From contig OX485809.1 in the NCBI GenBank assembly GCA_950295325.1, positions 5,950,001 through 6,014,000 on the forward strand: a stretch of DNA of 64,000 nucleotides. Direction: 5' to 3'. The notes beneath the pieces are model-generated. The model saw only the letters and a program-made list of their open reading frames with translations, ran no database searches and had not been told where the DNA came from. Below, piece by piece: positions 1-64,000 of this stretch (position 1 is the first letter of the stretch; the number at the start of each line of letters is the position of its first letter). Both the position numbers and the translations under genes were made by a program. The stretch comes from Polytrichum commune (lineage: Eukaryota; Streptophyta; Polytrichopsida; Polytrichales; Polytrichaceae).

Positions 1-2117
1 TACTTTGCTCCACGTGGTGTAACCACCAACGGCCCTGCAAAGTCCAACGACCAACGGTAGCCTAATCCCATGATAGGTAAGGGCTGTAACTGAGGTGATA
101 AGGTGTTAAAGCTAGACCTAACCCGGTCACAAACTTCACACCTCCCGATATATGCAGCCACCTGCTGATACATGCCAGTCCACCAATATTGGCCACGCAA
201 CATCGAATGTGTCCTGCGTATGCCAAAATGGCCAAGTTCCTCGTGCACTTGTCGCACCAAGGAGGCCCTCTGATCCGGCCTAGGAACAATACGCCTTGTC
301 CCATCCGGCCACAATCGGAATAACAAACCGTTTTCCCAACGGAACCTTGTTATTCGATGTCCAATCCTATCCCTTTCCATTGCCGAAATAGACAAAGGAA
401 AGGTACCCTGTTGAAGCTTATGCAATACGGGAAGATCCTCCCATATATCCGCAATAGCTTGAGGCCGATCAGTCTCATTATCCGAGCCCTGTATCGGAAT
501 CTCAACAGATGCACCAGCAAATAAAGTGAGGTAGGCAGCCGCGTGCCAACCTGGAACCGCCTCTCGATCACAATCTCCATGCCACCTGGCCCCGGTCAAG
601 TCCTCATCCGAAGGACTTGGATTGCGTGAGAGTCCATCTGCATCCATGTTGGTAATCCCAGCACGGTGTACCACCTCAAAGTCATACTCCTGGAGCAACA
701 AAGCCCACCTGGCAAGCTTGCCAGTAAGCTTATCCGACTCCATGAGCCACCGTAACGGCTGATGGTCAGTCACCAAAGTAAAGTGCTGACCATAAAGATA
801 CGGCCGAAAATGGGCAATAGCCCATACCGCCGCCAATGCTTCTCCCTCATAGGACGAATAATTGGCCTCCGCCGTGTTGTTGCTTCGCGACGCGTAAGCA
901 ACAACATACTCCCGACCAACGTCATCTTTCTGAGTAAGAACTACTCCCAAACCCAATGAGCTCCAGTCTGTATGCAACTGGAAAGATTTGGAGACATCTG
1001 GACGTCGAAGCACTGGAGCCGTACCCAGTTTCTGCTTCAATGTCTCAAATGCCTGTTGTTGCTCACGACCCCAAGTCCAAGGTTGGTCCTTGCTCGTGAG
1101 AATGGTGAGCGGCTTGGCAATCAAGCTAAAGTTCTTGACGAATCGCCGATAGTAATTCGCCAAGCCTAAGAAAGCACGAAGTCTCGGCACATCTACCGGT
1201 GCCGGAATCTTCTGCAATGCGTCCACCTTAGTTTGTTGTACCCCAAGACCTCTTGGAACAATCATATGCCCCAAATATGCCAACCGGTCATGGAAAAACT
1301 TGCATTTTCCGTGGTGCAAGCGCAATCCCCACCGCTGCAACCGTTCAAAAACGGATTGCAGATGCCTCACATGCTCCTGTGGTGTTGTGCTGAAGATGAT
1401 CACATCGTCTATGTAACACCGAGCAAAGGGCAAGCCAGAGAGAACTTGATCCATCACCCGCTGAAACTCAGCGGGTGCATTCTTCAGGCCAAATGGAAGA
1501 AACTTCCAATGATAAAGTTGATCTTTCCCATCTTGATCAACTCTCCAAAATGCGGTCTTCACCCGATCTCCCGTAAGTAATGGAAGTTGGTGATATCCGG
1601 ATCTCAAGTCCAAGGTGCTAAAGACCCGAGAAAATCCGATGGCATCGAACAACTCCTCCGGGATCGGCATGGGATACCGATCCGACTTGGTCTTCCGATT
1701 AACTGGACGGTAATCCCAACACATCCGCTTCTCCGTCCAATTGCCAAAGATATCCTTCTTCGATGGCATAACCGTAGCACAAGCATACTCCCCGTTGGAA
1801 AGTTCGATTAGCCCTGCTGCCAAGAGCTCTTGGCAACGAGCCTGAATGCCAATCCGCTCGGAAACACTCAGCCTGTAAGGTCTCCGAAAAATGGGATGGT
1901 CGTCCTCCAACTGTATGTGGATGGGTTTTCCTTTATAACCTTCAAGATCTTAAAGGCTAAAAGCAAAACATCTACGGTACGAGCGAATAAATGCTCGTAC
2001 CTTCCGTGCCTCAGCACCAGTGAGACGAGGGCCTAATTCAAGTGGCCAATCATCAAACTCTGTAGTCTCCCTCTCCACCAAAGGAGAACCACCTGATGCT
2101 GGCACATACTCTAATTG
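1..2117 (-). CDS. Retrotransposon Pol (RT-RNase H-integrase), partial, with one in-frame stop
   Basis: This is the Pol part of a Ty3/gypsy-type LTR retrotransposon, read in the same frame as the upstream ORF and reached only past the UAG at 2118-2120. The frame stays open to the left edge of the window (about 705 codons) apart from a TAA at 1950-1952, 55 codons in, within the region just before the RT fingers. Visible landmarks are the RT active site YIDD at 1404-1415, LRSGYHQ and FGLKNAP upstream of it, RNase H residues in HTDWSS (near 960), the YEGEALAA and VTDHQPL blocks, and an integrase H2C2 zinc finger (HEELGHFGIRRTH ... CEVC, about 140-260) followed by WSLDFAGPL, the start of the integrase core. 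RT, RNase H, then integrase is the Ty3/gypsy order. The rest of integrase and the 3' LTR lie outside the window. The TAA context (UAA GAU CUU) is not a known readthrough signal, so this copy may be defective. Confidence 0.93.
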
Positions 2118-2120
2118 CTA
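2112..2120 (-). promoter_or_regulatory. Probable stop-codon readthrough signal UAG CAA UUA
   Basis: The methyltransferase ORF stops at TAG (2118-2120) and is followed directly by CAA TTA. This matches exactly the UAG-CAR-YYA consensus of the tobacco mosaic virus replicase leaky stop. The Pol frame continues in the same phase, so readthrough would give a Gag-PR-DNMT-Pol fusion at low frequency without any frameshift. Readthrough itself is an inference. Confidence 0.75.
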
Positions 2121-5100
2121 ATGAGAGGAGGGGGCATTAACCATGCCCCCAGTCTCGGTGCTAGTACTAGAGTCTGACATTTCTTCATCACCACCAATAT
2201 GTGATGATGAAGCCACCACCGGAGGCGAAGAAACCGAAGCAGTGTAAAAATGTTGAGCTCGAAGCTCCTCCATCACATACTGCTCGAATTGAAAAATTCG
2301 TTCGGCTTCTCCAACCATGGCGTGAATTCCCTCCTCCATGGGTGTGGACCGCTGTGCCCCCTGACCAGAGTCCTCTGCCCCCAGAGACAAGCACTGGTCA
2401 CCACGATGCCTTTGCAATGAAAGGCATAAAGCAACAGTCCACACCATAGTATGAAGATCCATAGCTTGGCCCAACACGAAGCGTCGCTGGCCCTCAGAAA
2501 GGCCGGGAGCTGCGGTGGTGCCAGTGCGGAATCCCATGGCACGTTCCCGTTCGTCAGCCAATGGTTCGGTGTGGGTTTTGGTGTGAACATCCCACACCAT
2601 ACCCGGCCCCCGATCGCGGAAGGCGAATGACTGTGGAAACGTCATAAAGGTAGGAAATGCTTTCCGTGGTGTCCCCACTTTGTTGACCAATGCCAACGGG
2701 GGTAAATCATCTCGAACAACCGGCAAAGAGGTCCGGTTTGCATCCAAGATGTCATCCACCTTTTGATCTAAAGGTAGAGGTACTGCAAAAAATGCTGCAG
2801 CTAAAGTAGATGACGGTGCGAGGTTGGTCCAAATCCACCGAGGCCGGTGGGCATAAGAACCAATGCTCGCGGCATCCACAAAAATGGGATCTCCAAGGTG
2901 TTGACGAACATAATGATCACCTTCCAACACCTTATCCCGGGAGTCGCCCAACAATGGTATATTCTCGAATATATACCCTGGAGGAGTATGTTGGTGGGAA
3001 AACCACCACTGCATGAGGCGGATGAGGTCCCAAAACAAATTAGACCTGGGATCCTCTAGACCTCGGCCGGCTCCAGCACGTGAATGGCCCTGGCATGGCC
3101 ATCCCGCAATCACCATATCCACCGGACCTAAATGTCGTAAATCGGCCTCACTGATGAGTGTGACATCACGAGGGAGACGTGAAAAACACCCACGAATGGC
3201 AGTTGGAGGTAACTGTTGGGGGTACAATACCATCAATTGGTGAAGATGGTGACGAGCCACACGGGTGGACACTTGAGAGTTGTCCACATAGACATACCGT
3301 CTAACCGTGAGGCCAACCTCCAATACGGCCGCTAAGCCTGTGCCGATGCCCCCAAACAGTTCCACCAAAGTAATTCCCGTGTCTGGCGGTTGCCATAAAA
3401 TGGGATGTGCCAATGCCGAGAGGACACCGGGTATGACCGGTGTCCTAGGAGTGAGAGAGTGAACAATATCCTCGCACCTCCGAAATAGCTCGGCGGAATC
3501 ACGCCAAGGAAGAAGGGGATCCTTGGGATGGCGCACCAGTGCACCCTTAGGTGCCATATCCCGTTGATCGTTTGTACTCCCCATGAATGCCAATGACTCC
3601 TCCAACAATGCAGAACCATAAGGCAATGTGTCCACCATAGCACCACATCCAAAAACCATAGATAATGGTGCTATGGTCGCGGCCGCCGCAAAAGCCACGG
3701 GAATAAGTTCTCTGCGGCCATCCCCAGCCGACCAACCTGGTCGGATCCACGCCTCCTCAGTCCAGTTGTCCAAACCAAAACCAAGAGGGTAAAGTGCTTG
3801 TTGACCAACTAAAATGTCATAGTTGGTCGCATCTGTCACCGCACACCTAAGAAGAAGAGGTGCGGGTGAATCTCCAGGCTTCACTCGGAAGCTAAGATCT
3901 AATGGCTCCCGAGTATAACCCATGGCCCGCTCCACGTGACCAATGGATGTGACAATGGTGAATGGACAGGGAGCCAAATCCTCGGCCTTCAACCCCAACT
4001 CTTGGGCAAGCCTCTTGCCGAGCATAACCGGTTGTGCCCCTGAATCCATCATCACACAACGGGAAGCAACCCGGGTAGCATTGCTCCCAGTACGACTGAC
4101 CACCAAAATGCCGGTATCATTCACCATCCGTACAACGCCAGGTCGAATGCCTCGACGCTCGCGAGCAGGTCGAGCAGCTACATCGGATAGATAAGCTACG
4201 CCTGCAGAGGCTAGTGAATGATAAGATGTGGTTGGCTCCTGGCCATCCAAGGTGTGTGCGTCAAAAGACGCAATGGCCTCCTCCGCAAGCCTCGCTCGCC
4301 GTTTGGCGGCTTCCTCAGGATCCTCCGTGGTAGGAAGGTCTGCGGTTGCTTGAGCCACAGTAAGAGAAGACGGGGTTGCCTTCCCCTCCAATATCCTACC
4401 TGCTAGGTAAAAAACCTTAGCTGGTTGGATATCGGATGACGACCAATCCATTGCTGTGAACAAAGGCATGTGCAATACTTTGGATGCCAAAGTGTGCAGC
4501 ACGTCGGTCGACGGACTCGAAGCCTCCAAGCTCGAATTGCGACCACTGACAGATTGGGCAGCATCAGCCAATCCAAAAGACAATGGAAGGCGTGCCTGAC
4601 CAATCTGATCCGCGGGACCATTGTGCCGAGCTCGTAAGCTGTCCACAGACTCTCCTGTGGTCGAAGGCGTGGCTCGTGACACGGTTTGAGCACGTGTCAC
4701 AGCTGCAGAACTCACCACCTCGCCCGAGGCTCCGAACATATAGTAATCCGGAGTGGAAGAACTAGCCTGAGCTGCGGAGGAAGACGGTGAGGCCAAAATT
4801 TGGCCGGATGAAGCCAAGCTTTTGAACCTCTCCTCCATGGCTCCAATCTTCGCCTCCAACGTTTTCTTCCGGTCGGAAGAAGGACGTTTCTCAGGATGGA
4901 GAGCGAAGCAGTTCTCCATCGCGTGATTGTGTCGCCCACAATGAGAACACTTCAATTGTTTGGGTAACTGATTATTCGTCCCCTTCGTCGAGCCCTTAGC
5001 GGGAACAAATGGTTTCTGCTTCGGAGTAGTGGCGGTCTGGGCTTGCCTATGCTTCGAAGGACAATCCTTCTTAGCATGGCCCGCCTGTCCACAAGACCAA

Positions 5101-5393
5101 CAATGCAAGATCTTGTCCACCTCTGCCTCCGCCAACCCCGCAGCCGCAACCGGAACCTTCCGGGATTTGCTAGAATCCACTAGCATGGACACCAAGTCAG
5201 TGGCGTCGTGCTGACACAAGGCACGATCACACTGCTCAACAATGGCGAAAGCTTCCGCAAATTCCGCAAATGAAGCTAGCCGCAAATTCGCCGCAATCCC
5301 ACGCCCTCCGCGTGTTGCCGGACGCCCCCGCAAACCTCTCCCGCAATGCTCCACCTTTCCCAACAAAATGATTCCGTACCAAACCTCCGACAA
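2118..5393 (-). CDS. Retrotransposon Gag-protease-DNA cytosine methyltransferase polyprotein
   Basis: A 1091-aa ORF of an LTR retrotransposon. Residues ~35-75 resemble the end of a Gag capsid (AEFAEAFAIVEQ). Two CCHC zinc knuckles follow: C98-x2-C101-x4-H106-x4-C111 and C149-x2-C152-x4-H157-x4-C162. A retropepsin spans ~425-545, with the catalytic DSGA at 450-453 and YDILVG at 525-530. Residues ~555-672 are an unrecognised linker. Residues ~674-995 are a C5-cytosine methyltransferase: motif I VELFGGIGTG (677-686), motif IV GWPCQGHS with catalytic Cys767, motif VI FENI (809-812), motif VIII HRPRWIWTN (849-857), a putative target-recognition stretch, motif IX ERERAMGF (948-955) and motif X LGQAMDL (974-980). 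The motifs run I to X, as in DNMT3, and not in the permuted order of plant DRM. The ORF ends in UAG CAA UUA, with Pol in frame behind it. The Gag N-terminus is short and the annotated ATG may be internal: similar residues lie in other frames just upstream, which suggests a frameshift or truncation. Confidence 0.92.
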   Translation of the reverse strand: MSEVWYGIILLGKVEHCGRGLRGRPATRGGRGIAANLRLASFAEFAEAFAIVEQCDRALCQHDATDLVSMLVDSSKSRKVPVAAAGLAEAEVDKILHCWSCGQAGHAKKDCPSKHRQAQTATTPKQKPFVPAKGSTKGTNNQLPKQLKCSHCGRHNHAMENCFALHPEKRPSSDRKKTLEAKIGAMEERFKSLASSGQILASPSSSAAQASSSTPDYYMFGASGEVVSSAAVTRAQTVSRATPSTTGESVDSLRARHNGPADQIGQARLPLSFGLADAAQSVSGRNSSLEASSPSTDVLHTLASKVLHMPLFTAMDWSSSDIQPAKVFYLAGRILEGKATPSSLTVAQATADLPTTEDPEEAAKRRARLAEEAIASFDAHTLDGQEPTTSYHSLASAGVAYLSDVAARPARERRGIRPGVVRMVNDTGILVVSRTGSNATRVASRCVMMDSGAQPVMLGKRLAQELGLKAEDLAPCPFTIVTSIGHVERAMGYTREPLDLSFRVKPGDSPAPLLLRCAVTDATNYDILVGQQALYPLGFGLDNWTEEAWIRPGWSAGDGRRELIPVAFAAAATIAPLSMVFGCGAMVDTLPYGSALLEESLAFMGSTNDQRDMAPKGALVRHPKDPLLPWRDSAELFRRCEDIVHSLTPRTPVIPGVLSALAHPILWQPPDTGITLVELFGGIGTGLAAVLEVGLTVRRYVYVDNSQVSTRVARHHLHQLMVLYPQQLPPTAIRGCFSRLPRDVTLISEADLRHLGPVDMVIAGWPCQGHSRAGAGRGLEDPRSNLFWDLIRLMQWWFSHQHTPPGYIFENIPLLGDSRDKVLEGDHYVRQHLGDPIFVDAASIGSYAHRPRWIWTNLAPSSTLAAAFFAVPLPLDQKVDDILDANRTSLPVVRDDLPPLALVNKVGTPRKAFPTFMTFPQSFAFRDRGPGMVWDVHTKTHTEPLADERERAMGFRTGTTAAPGLSEGQRRFVLGQAMDLHTMVWTVALCLSLQRHRGDQCLSLGAEDSGQGAQRSTPMEEGIHAMVGEAERIFQFEQYVMEELRAQHFYTASVSSPPVVASSSHIGGDEEMSDSSTSTETGGMVNAPSSH
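2409..3374 (-). other. C5-cytosine DNA methyltransferase domain inside the retrotransposon ORF
   Basis: This domain transfers a methyl group from S-adenosylmethionine to C5 of cytosine. The catalytic Cys codon is TGC at 3093-3095. All landmark blocks of the fold are present and uninterrupted. Three features favour a DNMT3-like rather than a bacterial, CMT or MET1 origin: the GIGTGL glycine loop followed by RYVYVD, the LGPVDMVIAGWPCQ stretch, and AHRPRWIWTN, which resembles the DNMT3 HRARYFWGN block. Motif VI reads ENI in place of the usual ENV. No PWWP, ADD, BAH or chromodomain is seen. The domain sits between retropepsin and RT, so protease processing could release it. Confidence 0.9.
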
Positions 5394-6079: not shown

Positions 6080-6701
6080 GAATGAAGAATGCTCTACACA
6101 AGCTCAATAATACGAATTCAAGCTTGCAAGCGGAAAAATAACAAGGAATTCCGTAATAAATTCAATAATTCATCACCACAATTCACCTTGATGTGGCCTT
6201 AAAAAACAAGCATTCTTCATCTTGTTGCGCCGCAAATCCGCGGTGTTCTCTCTCCAGAACTTCGCAATTTCATCACTCCTTGTCCTCACGCCTTTTCTTG
6301 TGTGTTATATATAAAAAATGTAGAAGAAAACAACAAAAATGAAGCAATTCTTGCCAAGTGAGAAGGAAGAAAGTAGAACACTCACAATAGCTCTAAATCT
6401 CTTCAAATGCAGACCAATTAGTCAAGCTATCTCTCACTCCACCAAGGGAGAATCCAAGAGTGTAAGTAGGGGAAGAAGAACTCAAGATTTATTGCAAAAT
6501 CATGCAATCTACACCTCACACAAGCTCTCTCCACACACTAACTCACAAGACTTGACTTGGCAAGAATGCCAAGCCAAGGAGGAGGCTCCTCACTTAGGAG
6601 CCTTCCTTTCCACATCTAGATTCATCCATCCAAATCTAGATGGATGAAACCCAACGGATACGGTGCGGCCTTCGATGCCGCATACCGTGACAATTGTGAC
6701 A
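6080..6701 (-). mobile_element. Putative 5' LTR of the methyltransferase retrotransposon
   Basis: Read on the minus strand, this region begins TGTCACAATTGTCACGG at 6701, a plausible TG start. It contains an AATAAA signal near 6490, a TATATATAA near 6310 and no coding frame, and it lies upstream of Gag in the expected place. The partner 3' LTR is outside the window, so both ends and the identity as an LTR are inferred. TG could also be at 6720. Confidence 0.4.
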
Positions 6702-6883
6702 CCGTCTTGATCGGTTGTCATTCATCTTTATTCCGTCTTTCTTGTATTCAATCTATTGCTTGGGCATTGTGTACTCATACATCATATGTTGTATTCAACG
6801 AAAAAAGTTGATAGCAAAACCATTCAATTGAAGACCACCATAACTTAGAGCAAAGACCAATCAAGTAAATGTGGTGGAATATA

Positions 6884-7248
6884 AGGCACCTCGGGCCTTG
6901 GCTTGGTAGTTAGGGCTCATGGCCCCCAATGAGAAGGTTAAGGGTTCTATTCCCCATGCCAGCGTGGTGCTCACCACCTTAGTCCACCTAGCTATGGTGG
7001 GGGGACCTTGCTGTATGGGTACCTCAAAAAGTCCTTTGGGGGATACCATGTCCGGTATCTTCAAGGCACTAGTGGCTAGCTAGGGACTAGTATAGTGTGT
7101 CACTATAGTGCCCATCCTCGAAAGGGGAGAGTAGTATTGCCCCAATGTCCCCTTGTCCAGTGGGCATCGGGTCATTGACATTACGAAAGAACACTTTATT
7201 CACGCCAGCCCCTTGTTAAAAACGGACCGGAGTTTCTATCTATCTATC
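6884..7248 (+). mobile_element. tRNA-derived SINE with 12-bp target-site duplication
   Basis: The 365-bp insert is flanked by a perfect direct repeat, tggtggaatata, at 6872-6883 and 7249-7260. The head resembles a pol III promoter: an A-box-like TGGCTTGGTAGTTAGGG at 6899-6915 and a B-box-like GGTTCTATTCC at 6953-6963, one base off the consensus. The tail is a short TATC repeat. The element encodes no protein. A shorter relative lies at 44722-44864. Confidence 0.85.
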
Positions 7249-7260
7249 TGGTGGAATATA

Positions 7261-9276: not shown

Positions 9277-12200
9277 ATGGCGCTCAAGTTTCTGAACAAG
9301 AAAGGATGGCACACGGGGAGCTTGCGAAACATCGAGACAGTATGGAAGGCGGAGCAGAAACACGAGGGGGAGCAGAAGAAGCTGGAGGAGCTTCGCAAGC
9401 AGATTCACGAGGAGCGCGAGCGTTCGGAGTTTCGCCAAATGCAGGAGCAGGCTGGCTTGGTCCCGTAAGTATTTCTGGTCCCTTCAGATAGATGCCTCAT
9501 TTACTGGACTTTTAGGTGAATTGTGAAGAGTAGTACTCTGATTCGTTTTGTTGAGCATGCCTACGAAAAGAAGGGACGAATCCGCTGTTGTTGTTGTTGC
9601 CAGCCGCATGAATTATGGTGTTGCTTCATCTTGAAGTTGGTCTAAGTGTTTATATTCTCCTTGAATGGGCATCACGAGAATTAGAGGACTCCTGAAGATT
9701 ACTGTCTCCTTTAAAAGGTGCACACCTTAAACGGGTGCAGATGTATACTGGAGTTCATAATGGATTGTGAAGAGTAGTCTGATGATTCTGATGTTGCCAC
9801 GGGCGTGACTTATTATGGTGTTGCTTCATCTTTGAGATGGTCTACTTCCATATGTCATCCCTGAACCGGCATTCTGAGAAATAGAGGCCCCCAAAGAGTA
9901 TTGCCTCCTTTACAAAATGAATGCCTTCAACAGGTGTAGACATTTACTGGAGTTCATAATGAATCATGAAGAGTGCTCTGATTTTGTTGTTGAACATGCC
10001 TAAAAAGGAAGAGATGACTCCAATGTTGCCACTGGTGTGAATGGTGTTGCTTCATCTTTGAGTTGGTCTAAGTCTAAATGTAATCTTCAAATTGGGCATC
10101 ACGAGATTTAGAGGCCCCAAAGACTAGTGCCTCCTTTCAAAGGTGAACACCTAGAACGGGCAGGCGTGACAAGCTCGCTTGCACCTATCTTGCCCAATGG
10201 CAAGCCCCCTACATTTGTACATGGTTGGTTGAAAATATGCAATTCACCATGATTATGCAATTCACCCTTATACCCCAATATGATTGGTTGGACCATAGGT
10301 GGCAAGGTGCACCAAAAATCAAGTGCTAGGAAGGTCACCCATCTGAGTACTATTCAGGCCTTTAGGCGGGTTAACCTTGGAGTTTCTTTGTTAAGTAGAC
10401 AGGGTTCTCTTTTTCTGTGTTGTGGTGCTTTTGTCCTAATTAGGGGTGTGGGAGTGCAGGAGGCAAGAACGTCTGGAATTTCTCTATGATTCAGGTCTGC
10501 AGGTTGGTAAGGTGTCTCAGGCGGATGAATATCTTCTAGGAAAACCTATTGACGAGGTATTGAAACCAGAGAACGAGATTGCGAAGGTAATTTATCTTGT
10601 CCATCTGGCTTGAAAACAAGAGCTTAAACTTTGACGTGGAATCTGCACTATCAGTCACTAGGCTTGTAATTTGTAAAGTGTCTTAGGGGCTGTTGAAGTA
10701 CATTCTCAAAATTTGTGACAAGAACTTGGACTTGTGACTTGCAATTGATTCATGCTGTGATCAATCAATTTACTTCCAGTGCAAGAGTGGGCATGTGGAC
10801 TTATCTAGATGTTGTATTTCACTTGAGCAGGTCGCAGCTACACCTGGTGCACTGTTTGTGGAAGAAAAACCTGCATCAGCAAATGACTCTTGGAGGAAGC
10901 TGCACTCAGATCCTCTGTTTTTGATTAGACAACAAGAGCAAGCAGCGATTGCACGCATCAAAAGCAATCCAGTGAAGATGGCGGAAATTAAAAAAGATGT
11001 AGTGATTCACCCTCCTGTACTTGAAGGACCAATATGAGAGATGATTCAGAAGTATTTTGTGTAGATGCACCGTATTCAGTTTAATCCCTGTTTTGGTGTT
11101 GTGTGTTGTGTTCATGTGTACGGACAAGTTTGGTACACTATTTCTAATACCATGGTGTACATGCAATGCTGAAATGGAGTGTCCTTTAGGTCTAATCACT
11201 TGGATAAGCAAACCTCAGTTGTTGTGTTTAACAACATTGTACTTCTAAACCTGGGCAATTGGTGCTTGTGACTAACCTTGAATTTAATTTCTGAACACAG
11301 GCTGAGATGAAGAAAAAACTGAAAGAGGCGAAAAAGATGTTGCGCAAGGAGGCCAAGCGGGAACGTAGAGAAAAAAAGAAGAGGAAAAAGGAAGAGTCAA
11401 CTAGCAGTGAGGATTCATCTGGTTCTGACAAACCTGTGAAGACCAAAGGATCAGCTCAGATTTTGGTTGATGATGTCAATGGGAAAAGTAGGAGGAACAG
11501 GAGCCCATCTAAGAGTCCTTTACGGAGGGACCATTCTCGGAGCCCTAGTCAGCATAGAAAAGATGATAGAAAGTACAGAAGTAGTCATGTCGATGAGAGA
11601 ACTCTCAGAAGTGAGGGAGGTAGACGGGAACATAGTGAATTCAGCAATCAAAGGAACAGAGAATCAAATGACCGAGAAGACAATTCTTACAGTGACAGAA
11701 GTCAGAGGTCTAAATACATGGATTCAGATAGAAAAGAAGATCCAAGGAATCGAAGGCCCAGGAATGACCACCCAGAAGAACTACGAGACTTAGATCGCAA
11801 ACGGAAATATGATGATGAGGATAGCTATCGTGATAGGTCTTATAGGGGTAGTGATAGAAGAAGGGATTATGACTGGGGTGTGGAGTCAAGTGAGGCAAGA
11901 AGATCTTACAAAGATGAAGGTCATGGAAGCCAAAATGGTGCAGATGGTGCCAAAAATAGGTCATATGATGATGGTAAGCAGAGGCCAGTGCATTACCGAG
12001 GAGTGGATTCAGATTATGAAAATGACAAAAGGCAGAGGCATGTCCATGCACAGGATACTGGACCATTGAGGTCTAATGACAAGGGACAAGGGAGCAAGAG
12101 CCTGGGTGACTCTGGCAATGGTGATTTTAAGGGAAATTACAGTCAATCAGAAGGGGCACACAAGTCAGGTTCTTACAGTGACGCAGATAAGAATGGAAGA

Positions 12201-20626: not shown

Positions 20627-23600
20627 TCAAAGCTTCTTTCTACCAGCAAGAATACGGGAGATTTGCAGCCCTCTACTAAATGCCTGGTTGAAGAGAAGTC
20701 GTGTCTGGAACTCAGACACGAAGGGGAACCATGAGAAAACAGCCACGGGCGTGAATAACACCAGGCCCATCATAAACTCGTAACCTCGTGCAAACGATTT
20801 CACAGAATCCCAGAATCCAAGTCTCACCACAACTGGCTTGCATGCTTGTGCAATCTGCACAAGAAACATACGGTTTCATTAAAACTGTTTCCATGTTCCC
20901 CTGGAGTTTCAATCTACAACTGTTTTTATAAAAGGATTGTCCAATGAATACACTAATTAAGAATGGAAAATTAACATAATCATGTTAGCACCTATACTTT
21001 TATTATTACAGCATTCCTATGCCCACACTTAGTGATGAAGTTAGCATCGCCTTAATTGATCGTTTCTCGGACATGTACATTATCACCTTATTTTAGGCTA
21101 AACTTCACAACAAGAGCTAATGATAACTTAGCAGTAAGTGGTATCTTACCGCTTTGCTTAACATAAAGGGACACATAAAATGCCACATTATATTTGATAG
21201 TCACCCCAATATTAGGTGTAAACATGTTGTATGTTTTCTATTTTCTAACTCCACTATTAGATGTGAATACGACCAAAGAGAATATGAAAGAAGTGAAATC
21301 ACCTGGAGCAATGCCCACCCTGTGGGTATGAACGCCAAAATGCTAGCAAATAGATCACCAACAGTGAACTGCCTCACATGTAGGACGGCGATGACAGATA
21401 TAGAACCAACAAAGAGACATGCCTTCAAAAGTCTGAACATCAGCTGGAAGTCTGCACTGAATTTATCTCTTCCCATCGAGACAATCTGCAAATGTAGGAA
21501 GTAAATTAAATGACATGGATGGTTTATGCAAATATGTGTTTACAGATGCAGCTTTAGAGAAAAACCAAAAATCCTATCTCCAGAAACCTATCTCAACAGA
21601 TTAAGAATCTCCCCAGATTTCTCATTATACCTCCCCGTATTTCTCCATAATCAAAACAATTGAGGTCAGGAGTTTCGGAAAAAACCTTCAATACTGCAAT
21701 TACTGCCAATATGACCAGCCACGAAAGTCCGTATACCTGATAACCAAAACACCACCCAGAAAGATCAAAAAGCAGATCATATGTTGAGGAAAGAACACAA
21801 ACATCATTACTCGCAGGTATCAAGATCTCATGGAATGGTTTGTGACGTACACTGATACTCAGATTGTTTGATGTTTGCACAATGTTCAAATGGTAGATTA
21901 TACCATATTGGTAGAGGAAGAACCGCATGGCCAGTATGCACTCTATCAAACGTCCTCGGAACCCTGTGTAACTTAAATGTTCTTGCTCTTCATCCCACCA
22001 TGACTCCCAACTCTTGGCACCTTCCACACCGATTCCTCCCCTGCCATAGGAATAACACGTATAGGAGTATTAAGATACTGCATATAGATACACTATTCAT
22101 ACCTGGAGCTGTTTTACACAGCAAAATTTACAAATCCAAGTTATTGCACTAAACAAACTGGCAAGGTGTTCACCTGTTACTGATCCACTTGTTCCAATCA
22201 TCCCAGTCTTCCACAATCTTCTGCCACTCAAAGCCCGACGGATTGAACAAGAAAGGTGCAAATAACCACGATGCTACCAGGAACCACATTGAAAACGTGA
22301 TCAAAATGTAGGTAACTGCTCCACTTGCAGAGCGGGACACGTATATGGTGTATACAATGAGCAGTAAAAGAAGCTCAATCCCTTTTGTGAAGTGAGACCG
22401 GGAATAAAGTCTGTAGTTCTCAGCAAAGCGTTCATGCCTTACAACAAACCCACGACCAGTTGGACGATACTTGGCACCACCATGCAAAATTGTCCGACCA
22501 AAGTAGTGAGTCTTTGTTCCCAAGGAGAAAGTGAAAAAGACAGACGCAAGCTGAAGCTGCATCGTCAAGAAGTCACTCATGGCTGTGCGGAATCCCCTCT
22601 CCAGCCCAATCTCCATTACCATAGGTAAGGCCATGAGCAGCCCTAGCTGAACAAGCGATTGTGATGCTAAAGCTGCCGTAAGAGCTTTATTGTTTGCAAG
22701 ATGGACTAGTGAATTGTCTACTCCACTGAGGGCAAGATACATACGTCCGTACAAAAATACATACACTGTGAGAACCACAATCTGCACAGGTGTAACATTA
22801 CAGGTCAGAAATGATCTATATACTCAGAAATATAGAAACAAATAATGTCATAGAAATGCATCTATATAATTGAATATGATTATTGCAGAGATTGTCCATT
22901 TTTGTCCCTAATCTCTGGGCTTGTTCAAACATGTAATCTTGTTATTGCAATGAGCTGAAAATTCATCACCATTCAACATACTATATTCATGACTTTTTAG
23001 TGCATTAATTACCATGGTGCTGAAATAATAACCAACTGTTGTGAAATAGCATGATAGCATGCGGAAGAAGTCAAAACGATGGCCAAGTCGATAAATGTCT
23101 CTGCTCAGGGACTGTTCACCATTGCCATTCGCAATTTTAGCCTCAAACAAGGATATCTGGTTCAAACCCACATCTCGTCCCTTCCCCACTTGAATGTATT
23201 CATGATGGGTTACATTTCCCCGACGTAAGATAGAATTGAAACCTGTTATTACACAGCACAATTAGTATTTCATAGAATGACTGGGTAGAAATATATCTAT
23301 AAATTTGTTGTAGCTCACCCACTTGAAGATCACAAAATGATCTTGAGAAGTCCAGAGCAGTCTTCCACAGATGTTTGGTCTTCAGGTTCCTACTATGCAT
23401 CTGCAACATCTGAGAAAAATGCACTAGACCAGTGTCTTGTAGCCATAAATATAAGAAACCTAAAATGAGTATCAGTTTTTGTAAATCAAACCTGCAAAGA
23501 TATCTTCACTCAAGTTGATGACACGGGAGGCCTTGCTCATCCCACCCCTCGTAATGTGGAATAGTCTATCAAATACATCAGGATGCCCATAATGGAATCG

Positions 23601-26600
23601 CACTCTGTTACAAAGAAGCAAAGTATCACATCAGTGATTTAGTGCAGCATACTATTGACACGAAGATATACACTGACAAGATAAAAAAGTCATCATGTTC
23701 CTTTCCTTTTGATCAAGCTAGATCGATAACCTTAGTGAACACTAGGTTTTCTAGCAATCACTGCTGCCATGCATCACCATGTTCCACAACATGGATTCAA
23801 CAGACCCATGACAATCTCCAAATCCTTTCCTGGCTTCATAAGGCATTTTCCCAACTCCTTTGAGCGTTTTCTCTTTAAAAAGCAAAGATGTTTAATAACA
23901 TAAGGCATTTTCCGAACTCCTTCGAGCTTCTGTTCTTTAAAGCAAAGATGTTCAAAAACAGTAATACACGAAAATATGGCCACTCACTTTAGTGGACTAG
24001 CCAGTACACGTTGTCCAATAGTCACAAAGCTCGTCTCCTGGTTGGACATGAACCATGCCAGAGATGACACACTGCATAGACACTGAAAGAATTAGGATGA
24101 AATCCCAAATCTTAATGCATCATATGGCAAGAATTTGGCTCCCTGAGAATGCTCATTCACAATTCAAACTGTGGATGTTACTTACAAACATGCACAATCA
24201 GGTCATGTAAAGGAGTGCACTAAATATAAGTTCCCCTAAATGGATATACTTGAACCAAGAAAATTCATGCATGCAAAGTAGGTTCGTGAAATCTAGTGTG
24301 TGTATCTGGGGCATGCCCAGAAGGCAGAATATAAGAACTTCCAATGTCAACATTATCAATTCCTTGTATAGTGTAGCAGATGTACGTTACCTGCCCGTAA
24401 AAATGTGCTCTCTCACACCCAAAATTGTGGGTGGCCGGACACCATGAGGTTCATGAAATTCCTGAAGAAGGTTTCTCATCTTGAAAGCCTCCTCCAGATA
24501 GTTATCCTGCACAGTGTAGAAATTAGATTGCATAACCTGTGTAGATACCCCTGAGCTTTAAGTAGACCATGGGTGGTAAAGTTGATTCACACCAGTCAAC
24601 GTAAATACATTATATTAATAAGATGTACATTCTCTGCAAATTATAATGTGACTGAACTCATTCCTCCATTTGTTCACCATTCCAAATATATTCACTATAG
24701 TATGGCTAATAGAAGATCGAATACAAGATGACATCTGCATAGGAACACATAGAAGGATTAAAATCAACACTTTCCAACTGTCCAATTGATACACAACTTA
24801 ATCTCCTGTAGAATCCCTCAAAAAGAATAGTAACCTGGTTCATGTCAATAGCTTGAAGGCCCTCGCCTCGTGTGAAGATAATTGCATGGTTCTGATTCTC
24901 AGGTTTGCCTTCCCCAAGTCTCACTGGACCAGGTAACTTGATCCTATATATTTCTTGATCAAGCCCATCAACTGCTTTCACCAGGACTGAGTAGTACACC
25001 TTCACAGTCCTTTCCTTCCGTCTCTCCTCAACCTCATCAATGTATGCCACACGAAGTGATGGATTACTGCATCCCAACATTATTGTGAGCACAGAAACCA
25101 AGAACATATAGAAGCCGTTTCCTATAAATGGAAAATGCTCAAATTAGCTTTGTAATAGGTACATATGAAGGTGATATACAACATTGATGACTAAACAGCA
25201 CTTCTACATATAATACATACTTGAGCATGAGTTTCAATATCTCTGCAGCATTGTGATGACTCTGTCGTTTCTGTTCACCATAATTTTGGCAGGCAGCAAC
25301 ATATGTGAACTTCATGTCTGCGATTGCTTGTAACTGAGACCAAGTAGACCGTTGGCTTTTTTTGGTTTCTGCACTAGCCTCTGTAATAATTTTGTAACCA
25401 TCCACAAGCTCTGCAGCACCAGATAAAAATATTAGAGCTTTTCAAGATTCCAGAAAACCAAACCACAGAAGCAGCAAGGTTGGAATCGAATTAAATAGAA
25501 AACTCTACAACTTGAATGCTCTTTTGAGAGATTCTGCCAGGAAACCTGATAAAATTAAATGATACATTTTTAAAGACTTACAAGAATAGTGGCCTGACTT
25601 ACAAAGAGAAACCACAGTAGTAATTCAACAATATGCTTTATACATACCGTCTTCAGATGCCATGTCCAGAAATGCCTGAAGCTCCAAAGCTCTTCTGTAG
25701 TACATCATGCCCCTTACTGCATATGAAACGCCAACACTTCGATTTTTAAAGTGTAAAGTAATCAATGTACACTGATCTCTTACATCTACAGAAACCAAGG
25801 ATATAAATGTGAGCTATTATTCAAGAGAGGAACTGAGAAATAGATTTACACCTGTTCGTGAAAGAGTTTGTCCTCGGAATGAAGCCCACTCTCGGAGCTT
25901 GTCTTCTAAATCCTCATTGTTCAAAATCTCAGTTTCATCTGTGAGAGGCGGCAGGCCAACACGTTCCAGAAAGTTGCTCCATTCATCTGAAGAGGAGTAG
26001 AAATCAGTTAGAGACTTCTCATTTCTGACAACATAGTAACATCACAAATACAATTACATGCCACAAACTTTGGGAAAATAATATAGCTTGACTATTTTTC
26101 CCAAAGGAAGCCTATTTTCATGCCCATCTCATACTAACTGCATAGAGCTAGCATGGCTGCTTGTTCAGCTGACAATCAAAATATATGGAAAAGATTGATA
26201 AAAATTTGCCTACATGCCTATTCAAGAATCTAGAGACCAAGCTGGAAACAGCTATGAGGATTTAGCAACTAACCTGGATAAATTTTTTGAAGATAGAACA
26301 AAACTGAAATTCCGTCCTCATTTTCCGTCATCAAGTTAGCCTTAGAGTATACCACGTCCTCTTTGTAATAGGGAGTCAAGACACTGCACATGAATGTTTC
26401 AACATGGCACAGAAAGTCAACACCTTAAAAAGCCTTTGTTAGGCTAGGATGAAATTAGTGAAATTGGATACATAAGAATTCAAAATTGCATCACAAAGTA
26501 TGTTCCTTGGTTTGCCGCAGGTGCAGATGTAGGTAAATGACGTTATACACATTCAGCAACCTACAGTAACCAAGTCTAGGGAAGTTTTTAATACGAAATT

Positions 26601-61995: not shown

Positions 61996-64000
<2,005 letters not shown>

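Follow-up and report, generated by a model that had tools for sequence, protein, structure and literature searches.

The window analysed here is a 64,000-nucleotide stretch of Polytrichum commune DNA, and all positions count from its first letter. Translation of the minus strand gave a single frame from 5393 to 2118 (ORF1; 1091 codons, opening with TTG and ending with TAG), which encodes a Gag (nucleocapsid), a protease and a C5-methyltransferase (MT). The Gag part has two CCHC zinc knuckles of the form CX2CX4HX4C, CWSCGQAGHAKKDC and CSHCGRHNHAMENC; knuckle 1 lies at 5061..5102 of the minus strand (residues 98-111; Pfam zf-CCHC 0.0029, below the curated cut-off) and knuckle 2 at 4908..4949 (minus; residues 149-162), where it was seen in the translation. 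The retropepsin-like protease (3699..4208, minus; residues 396-565) has its active site DSGA at 4035-4046, within MDSGAQPV; its Pfam match is weak (Asp_protease_2, 0.01, below the curated cut-off), and the region is 65-77% identical in all 11 whole-protein relatives. A first-pass annotation had read one ORF with two CCHC knuckles, a DSGA retropepsin and C5-MT motifs, and this was confirmed on the minus strand by translation, Pfam and AlphaFold. Callose synthase exons are also present in the window, and neither an Rfam match at the gathering threshold nor a tRNA was found in its 64 kb.

After the UAG stop of ORF1, a Pol frame (1..2117, minus) continues in the same frame until the window edge cuts it inside the integrase. 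It contains a reverse transcriptase (RT; 1197..1898, minus; PF00078, 1.8e-30), an RNase H (702..1091, minus; PF17917, 9.1e-38) and the integrase zinc-binding domain with the start of the core (3..293, minus; PF17921, 4.5e-17), the ranges being set by alignment to L075, a contig carrying a more complete relative. The order protease-RT-RNaseH-integrase is that of Ty3/gypsy LTR retrotransposons. ORF1 had been described as lying directly upstream of an RT-RNaseH-INT frame; the domains do follow, but because Pol runs in the ORF1 frame after UAG and has a further in-frame stop (TAA, 1952-1950, minus), the frame 3-1910 is not the whole start of Pol. Remnants of the 5' LTR and leader (6421..6697, minus) match a non-coding LTR-leader stretch of L075 (6421-6582, 68.6% over 172 columns, 1.7e-12; 6647-6697, 76.9% over 52 columns, 6.7e-4) and are the only LTR signal in the window, the 3' end of the element lying beyond it. 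Gag homology in ORF1 begins only near 5285, and about 300 N-terminal Gag residues (~0.9 kb) that L075 has are missing. The window copy is damaged and partly decayed; it cannot make a full Gag and has an extra stop in Pol.

The MT domain occupies 2394..3398 (minus; residues 666-1000). Motifs I, IV, VI, VIII, IX and X are present in the canonical, unrearranged order, by which a DRM-type rearranged MT is ruled out; DRM was absent among the 50 matches listed in the fold search, an absence that excludes nothing. A search with DNA methylase profiles had been proposed as a check, and PF00145 matched ORF1 above its cut-off (6.2e-11; 42.7 bits against 22), in an alignment spanning residues 742-820 only. 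DNMT3 was the nearest MT in the PDB profile search, and the top PDB sequence match was DNMT3A (3e-10, residues 674-862), with 20-26% identity to DNMT3 family structures among the matches listed. The AlphaFold model from a 69-row alignment has a pLDDT of 93.7 and, by fold search, a DNMT3-type fold; it supersedes a run from 10 close rows, which gave 39.7. Since no Pfam match to ADD or PWWP was found in ORF1, we speak of a DNMT3-type catalytic domain and not of a complete DNMT3. The evidence supports the reading of the window element as a Ty3/gypsy retrotransposon that carries a C5-methyltransferase of DNMT3 type.

The Pro-Cys-Gln of motif IV, with the catalytic Cys767, lies at 3090..3098 (minus; translation and MT alignment) and is unaltered in the window copy, in L075 and in Marchantia P0222 and P0224. 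This Cys is retained in 71 of 73 aligned MT rows, the Glu of ENV in 71 of 72 and Arg850 of motif VIII in 69 of 72. The Pro of motif IV is replaced by Glu in 23 of the 73 rows, so some relatives may be inactive. Bacterial or phage MTs were also considered as closest kin and rejected, because the 74 viral-contig loci of the profile scan were 24-45% identical, mostly partial, and none close. In genome contigs, four of five loci were from Streptomyces (30-37% identical over partial stretches).

Across MT and Pol, L075 and the window give a single alignment of 5.3 kb at 67.5%. The ends of this contig overlap by 127 nt, as would be expected if the assembler had collapsed two LTRs. Its Pol ends at the C-terminus in a PHD finger, with no chromodomain match at 0.01; this part of Pol lies beyond the window and is known from L075, not from the window copy. 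MT-bearing relatives were found in Marchantia, Calypogeia and Closterium, and the Pol clade also includes Klebsormidium and Haematococcus. Proteins annotated in Marchantia polymorpha have the order protease-MT-RT. Scans of viral contigs with P0002, the ORF1 alignment and the L075 Pol found no relative.

Comparison of the window copy with L075 shows the MT to be under purifying selection, stronger than that on its flanks. For this pair the MT gave a dN of 0.27 with dS saturated, so that the printed dN/dS of 0.109 assumes a dS of 2.5 and refers to a single sequence pair; pN/pS was 0.30 (95% bootstrap 0.25-0.36). The flanks also had dN/dS below 1 (0.22 and 0.5). The first-pass annotation had proposed a dN/dS check and had concluded from the intact catalytic landmarks that the domain had probably been under recent selection. 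The check shows constraint on the domain, measured between two family members and not on the window copy alone; intact motifs do not show that this copy, with the N-terminus of Gag missing and one stop too many in Pol, is active or was recently selected.

The stop of ORF1 reads UAG-CAA-UUA (2112..2120, minus), a tobamovirus-type readthrough context (UAG-CARYYA) with Pol in frame downstream, and L075 has UAG-CAA-UCA at the same place. This context and an in-frame downstream ORF are found in both of the two copies readable as DNA (window and L075, mutually related), in which the CARYYA hexamer that follows UAG predicts readthrough. A stop in frame does not by itself prove readthrough, since none was seen at the Tca2 junction in yeast (PMC2194720). 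Both copies have a weak hairpin about 30 nt past the stop (z-scores for the 90 nt as a whole, -2.33 and -1.47). Because the MT lies ahead of the in-frame, predicted leaky UAG, it would be made at the Gag level and not at the Pol level. Such a stop is not shared by the whole clade, since in 11 of the 120 Pol matches listed a single protein carries both MT and RT, in that order; some of the 11 are gene models and might be spliced. The first-pass annotation mentioned neither the leaky-stop context nor, beyond the window, the PHD finger.

Among Pol relatives the MT is found in two alternative slots, A and B. One change between the slots is needed in the MT tree (74 rows, counted without the 36 whose slot is unknown) and one in the Pol tree. 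The two trees were built quickly, carry SH-aLRT support only and contain long branches (P0185, P0174, P0143 and others); the slot B proteins P0200, P0213, P0229 and P0236, along with many fragments, had RT matches too short for inclusion in the Pol tree. A Pol protein without MT need not come from an element without it, as the MT can sit in a separate frame. Since the trees are quick and have long branches, one relocation and two captures from related sources both fit. We tentatively put forward, at rather less than even confidence, a single ancient capture of a DNMT3-type MT by one green-lineage gypsy clade, followed by selection across chlorophytes, charophytes and liverworts, a single shift of the MT out of the protease/RT slot into that at RNaseH/integrase, and its pairing with a Pol-borne PHD finger; in the window branch the MT would have come to lie with Gag, ahead of a leaky stop of the tobamovirus type, giving many methylase copies per particle. 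In that case the mobile element would carry a writer of epigenetic marks and perhaps also a reader of its own.

As to function, we lean slightly towards the reading that the window holds a decayed copy of a green-lineage Ty3/gypsy clade with a DNMT3-type MT, which is made at the Gag level and methylates the element's own cDNA. The clade probably acquired the MT before its liverworts and charophytes separated. A polyprotein of Gag, protease and MT is encoded by L075 and the long relatives; in the window and L075 it ends at the predicted leaky UAG, and ribosomes that now and then read through would extend it by RT, RNaseH and integrase, with the PHD finger as well in L075 at least. The MT would enter the particle at a Gag-like copy number, may be cut free by the protease, and could then methylate the DNA made in the particle before or at integration, so that a new copy would arrive already marked by 5mC, presumably to the benefit of the element. 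Computation established the order of the domains, the fold, its conservation and the purifying selection, along with UAG-CARYYA in both DNA-level copies and the PHD finger of L075.

Other roles have to be weighed against methylation of the element's own cDNA. The MT might act on host chromatin, with H3 tails read by the integrase-linked PHD finger and DNA near the insertion site methylated by the MT. In host DNMT3, the ADD and catalytic domains act together. A PHD finger follows the integrase in L075 and in 60 of the 120 Pol matches listed, and its nearest PDB sequences include the PHDs of CHD4, PHF12, UHRF1 and KDM5B, with DNMT3 as the closest MT; however, PHD and MT are on opposite sides of the stop in L075, and the PHD also occurs where no MT is seen in the protein, as in Haematococcus P0193, and we regard this role as unlikely. 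A little more doubtful again is a fold kept for a non-catalytic task, such as nucleic-acid binding or help in Gag assembly, or for action on RNA. The motif IV replacement would agree with it, as would KnitGypsy-Dnmt3, which gave no methylation in yeast, a result its authors deem inconclusive (PMC5890265), but the retention of Cys, Glu and Arg850 and the intact PCQ described above speak against it.

That the MT counters host silencing, by titrating or pre-empting the host machinery or by marking a context that the host does not silence, follows from general arms-race logic; it appears quite improbable to us, as KnitGypsy-Dnmt3 copies in Klebsormidium are methylated at CHG and CHH and serve as an example of silent elements (PMC5890265). 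The first-pass annotation had itself named an assembly chimera unique to this copy as an outcome against its reading. Damage in Gag and Pol would suit such a chimera, or a passenger by chance fusion, but the order Gag-protease-MT is common to 9 of the 11 whole-protein relatives (53-59% identical), L075 is collinear and the MT is under purifying selection; chimera and chance fusion were rejected on the relatives and the L075 alignment, and we give this explanation almost no credence.

Plants ordinarily fight transposons by cytosine methylation, so that a lineage of transposons in which selection maintains a DNA methylase reverses the usual roles. The leaky-stop layout predicts MT in Gag-like excess over Pol. 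The genetic model Marchantia polymorpha has annotated MT relatives, so the role of the methylase for the element can be tested directly.

The nearest known MTs by profile, fold and motif order are DNMT3A and DNMT3B, from which the window MT differs in being embedded in a Gag-protease. In-frame stops between frames, as in the window and L075, are also described for tobamovirus (CAR-YYA), MuLV, Tca2 and SIRE1, with a downstream pseudoknot in MuLV and one thought to be used by Tca2 (PMC2194720). Chromoviruses (Ty3/gypsy with a C-terminal chromodomain) resemble L075 in having a chromatin-reader-type domain after the integrase, which in L075 is a PHD finger, with no chromodomain matched. Transposon-encoded methylases have been stated to be absent from land plants such as tracheophytes (PMC6338049). 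The available parts of two liverwort genome papers have no mention of "methyltransferase", and the titles and abstract openings of the literature matches listed include neither a PHD finger in a gypsy Pol nor an MT-bearing gypsy in a liverwort.

Capture of MTs by retrotransposons in dinoflagellates and charophyte algae, mentioned in the first-pass annotation, does have precedent. SymbioDIRS-Dnmt3 and SymbioLINE-Dnmt of Symbiodinium are likewise retrotransposon-encoded cytosine MTs, the former with de novo CG methylation in yeast; these dinoflagellate DIRS and LINE elements are reported as separate acquisitions and have no gypsy integrase (PMC5890265). KnitGypsy-Dnmt3 of Klebsormidium nitens (de Mendoza et al., 2018; PMC5890265) is, like the window element, an LTR Gypsy of the green lineage whose DNMT3-type MT is intronless, unrearranged and subject to purifying selection (Ka/Ks < 0.2), and the K. 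nitens Pols P0201 and P0210 fall in the same Pol branch as the window element; the three K. nitens Pols among the matches listed have no MT in the same protein. The text of that paper describes its MT as lying in the Pol polyprotein ORF and its repeats as DIRS-like, whereas the window and L075 have theirs in one frame with Gag and protease, ahead of UAG-CARYYA; PHD, gag, readthrough and Marchantia are not mentioned in the main text as available. The window element is a further case of the known MT-bearing retrotransposons, which are more widespread and differently built than the report from one green alga; what is new relative to KnitGypsy-Dnmt3 is the MT ahead of a predicted leaky stop, the PHD-ended Pol of L075, the wider range of hosts and the two MT slots.

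On the minus strand of the window, a frame of 1091 codons at 5393-2118 (ORF1), which opens at TTG, contains, by translation, a pair of CX2CX4HX4C knuckles, a protease segment with DSGA and a C5-methyltransferase (MT) domain, as the first-pass annotation had described. The DNA_methylase profile of Pfam was matched above its cut-off (6.2e-11, aligned residues 742-820), zf-CCHC and Asp_protease_2 gave weak matches under their cut-offs, and the top PDB match in phmmer was DNMT3A (3e-10, residues 674-862). By fold, 4dkj ranked highest among structures other than DNMT3. The frame that had been assigned to RT, RNase H and integrase (Pol) lies downstream of ORF1 at 1910-3 on the same strand, and Pfam matched RT, RNase H and the zinc domain of the integrase there. 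The MT domain is not confined to this copy: the order Gag knuckles, protease and MT was found within one frame in 9 of 11 relatives. These relatives (53-59% identical, more than 90% covered in 9/11) were obtained by a search with the whole ORF1 protein that scored only the 7993 candidates with most words in common; the other two are shorter proteins, P0011 having no knuckle segment and P0012 no MT. With the MT domain alone as query, 200 proteins were matched, and the 120 listed include P0013 (90% identity, the highest), P0050 of the liverwort Calypogeia fissa (49%) and P0092 of Closterium (41%).

A more complete relative, readable as DNA, is present on a contig of 9285 bp (L075), which encodes the same MT at 67% and aligns with the window at 67.5% over 5.3 kb. 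The contig was deposited under the title of a Synechococcales (cyanobacterial) MAG; because it carries an LTR-type element with eukaryotic domains, we took it as misbinned. P0016, whose MT is 70% identical, carries the name of a Candidatus Obscuribacterales MAG protein, and misbinning is likely there too. The contig ends overlap by 127 nt, and the order is Gag-protease-MT followed by a Pol in which RT, RNase H and integrase precede a C-terminal PHD finger (L075:6459-6593, plus strand, PF00628, 4.3e-10), which sits at the gypsy Pol C-terminus, the position of the chromodomain in chromoviruses. About 300 residues of the N-terminal Gag of L075 are absent from the window copy (about 900 nt by L075 coordinates), ORF1 has 1091 codons versus 1252-1376 residues in nine relatives, and an extra in-frame Pol stop at 1952-1950 has no counterpart in L075. 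Judged from its sequence, the window copy is non-autonomous as it stands.

Two short non-coding L075 stretches match the window at 6421-6582 and 6647-6697. A tRNA-derived SINE-like insert at 6873-7260, with tRNA-like promoter boxes recognized by eye and a TCTA-repeat tail, lies close to these LTR remnants on their 5' side; an 11-bp direct repeat, GGTGGAATATA, flanks it at 6873-6883 and 7250-7260. An 81-nt unit is present in three copies with about 200-nt spacing at 9612-10118, the first being matched at 75% and 62% by the others. Other minus-strand features are exons of a callose (1,3-beta-glucan) synthase gene at 22173-22823 and 24709-25143 (PF02364, 4e-49 and 1.5e-26), which indicate a plant or algal host, and a frame at 63223-63456 resembling by eye an NDR/AGC kinase exon, for which a Pfam match at 0.001 was not found.

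Selection on the MT (335 codons) was measured by NG86 on one pair, window versus L075. Amino acid identity is 0.67, differences at the three codon positions are 0.28/0.20/0.59, pS is 0.76 (saturated), dN is 0.27 and pN/pS is 0.30 (95% bootstrap 0.25-0.36). In the same comparison dN is 0.21 for the protease, 0.07 for RT, 0.60 for the linker before the MT (dN/dS 0.22) and 0.73 for the tail after it (dN/dS 0.5); constraint on the MT is thus stronger than on both flanks and weaker than on RT. The earlier proposal of selection on the domain holds between two family members, while its "recent" part concerns the window copy, about which this pair says nothing.

The Pol lineage was surveyed in the best 120 of 1594 matches to L075 Pol, and the counts of domains and MT slots that follow cover these 120. 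RT, RNase H and integrase were all seen in 107, and the PHD finger lies after integrase in 60 (55 of the 66 having at least 110 residues past the integrase match) and elsewhere in 5. The MT lies ahead of RT (slot A) in 11 proteins, 5 with a C-terminal PHD finger, and between RNase H and integrase (slot B) in 14, 12 with PHD. Slot A includes gene models of Marchantia (P0222, with a truncated MT, and P0224) and Closterium (P0192, P0208); among the slot B proteins are P0177, P0179, P0187, P0196, P0204 and P0207. The Pro of motif IV PCQ is replaced by Glu (ECQ and similar) in 23/73 MT rows, and in 9/14 slot B and 4/11 slot A proteins. A quick, midpoint-rooted Pol tree was built from 92 rows. Its 23 MT-labelled rows (13 slot A, window and L075 included, and 10 slot B) all fall in one 81-row branch (SH-aLRT 100), which also takes in Klebsormidium, Closterium, Haematococcus, Marchantia and Calypogeia. 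Slot A versus B requires one change in both the Pol and MT trees, and slot B versus the rest requires two in the Pol tree. This pattern fits a single MT capture plus one slot move; two captures from related sources might also have produced it.

The ORF1 stop and the six bases after it read TAG CAA TTA in the window copy and, in L075, TAG CAA TCA; in both, Pol follows without a change of frame. The one-base difference alters the amino acid and keeps the motif CAR-YYA. The stop of tobacco mosaic virus is itself UAG. CAR-YYA directly after the stop is the readthrough consensus of that virus (PMC2194720), and TAGCARYYA accounts for 7 of 6872 stop trinucleotides on both strands of the window, the ORF1 junction counted. 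Since the two copies are related, their junctions are not independent, and since readthrough of the Tca2 in-frame stop was absent in yeast (PMC2194720), an in-frame stop by itself is no proof of readthrough. MT and RT lie within one protein, MT first, in 11 of the best 120 of 1594 Pol relatives, so the predicted leaky-stop layout characterizes the window's branch rather than the clade as a whole. In both copies a hairpin, similar in sequence, is found about 30 nt past the ORF1 stop; the 90-nt folds have z-scores of -2.33 (window 2031-2120, minus strand) and -1.47 (L075:3489-3578).

Gag assembles particles in which cDNA is made, and the Gag:Pol ratio is set by readthrough. From the layout, the MT would be produced with every Gag-protease chain and Pol only upon readthrough; the MT may then be cut free by cleavage and act on the element's own cDNA in the particle. 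Since particle DNA is this cDNA, self-methylation is the simplest choice of substrate. The idea was already put forward for DIRS elements by de Mendoza et al. (PMC5890265), who showed CG activity for the SymbioDIRS MT; activity of the KnitGypsy MT was not shown, the result being termed inconclusive (PMC5890265).

The nearest named element is KnitGypsy-Dnmt3, a Gypsy element of Klebsormidium nitens (de Mendoza et al., 2018), and the two have in common the gypsy type, an unrearranged DNMT3-type MT and purifying selection. It could share some of the leaky-stop, PHD, host-range and slot features of the present family. As far as the text of that paper covers them, four features are different or unseen in KnitGypsy-Dnmt3: an MT placed with Gag ahead of a predicted leaky stop, the PHD finger, the wider host range and the two MT slots.
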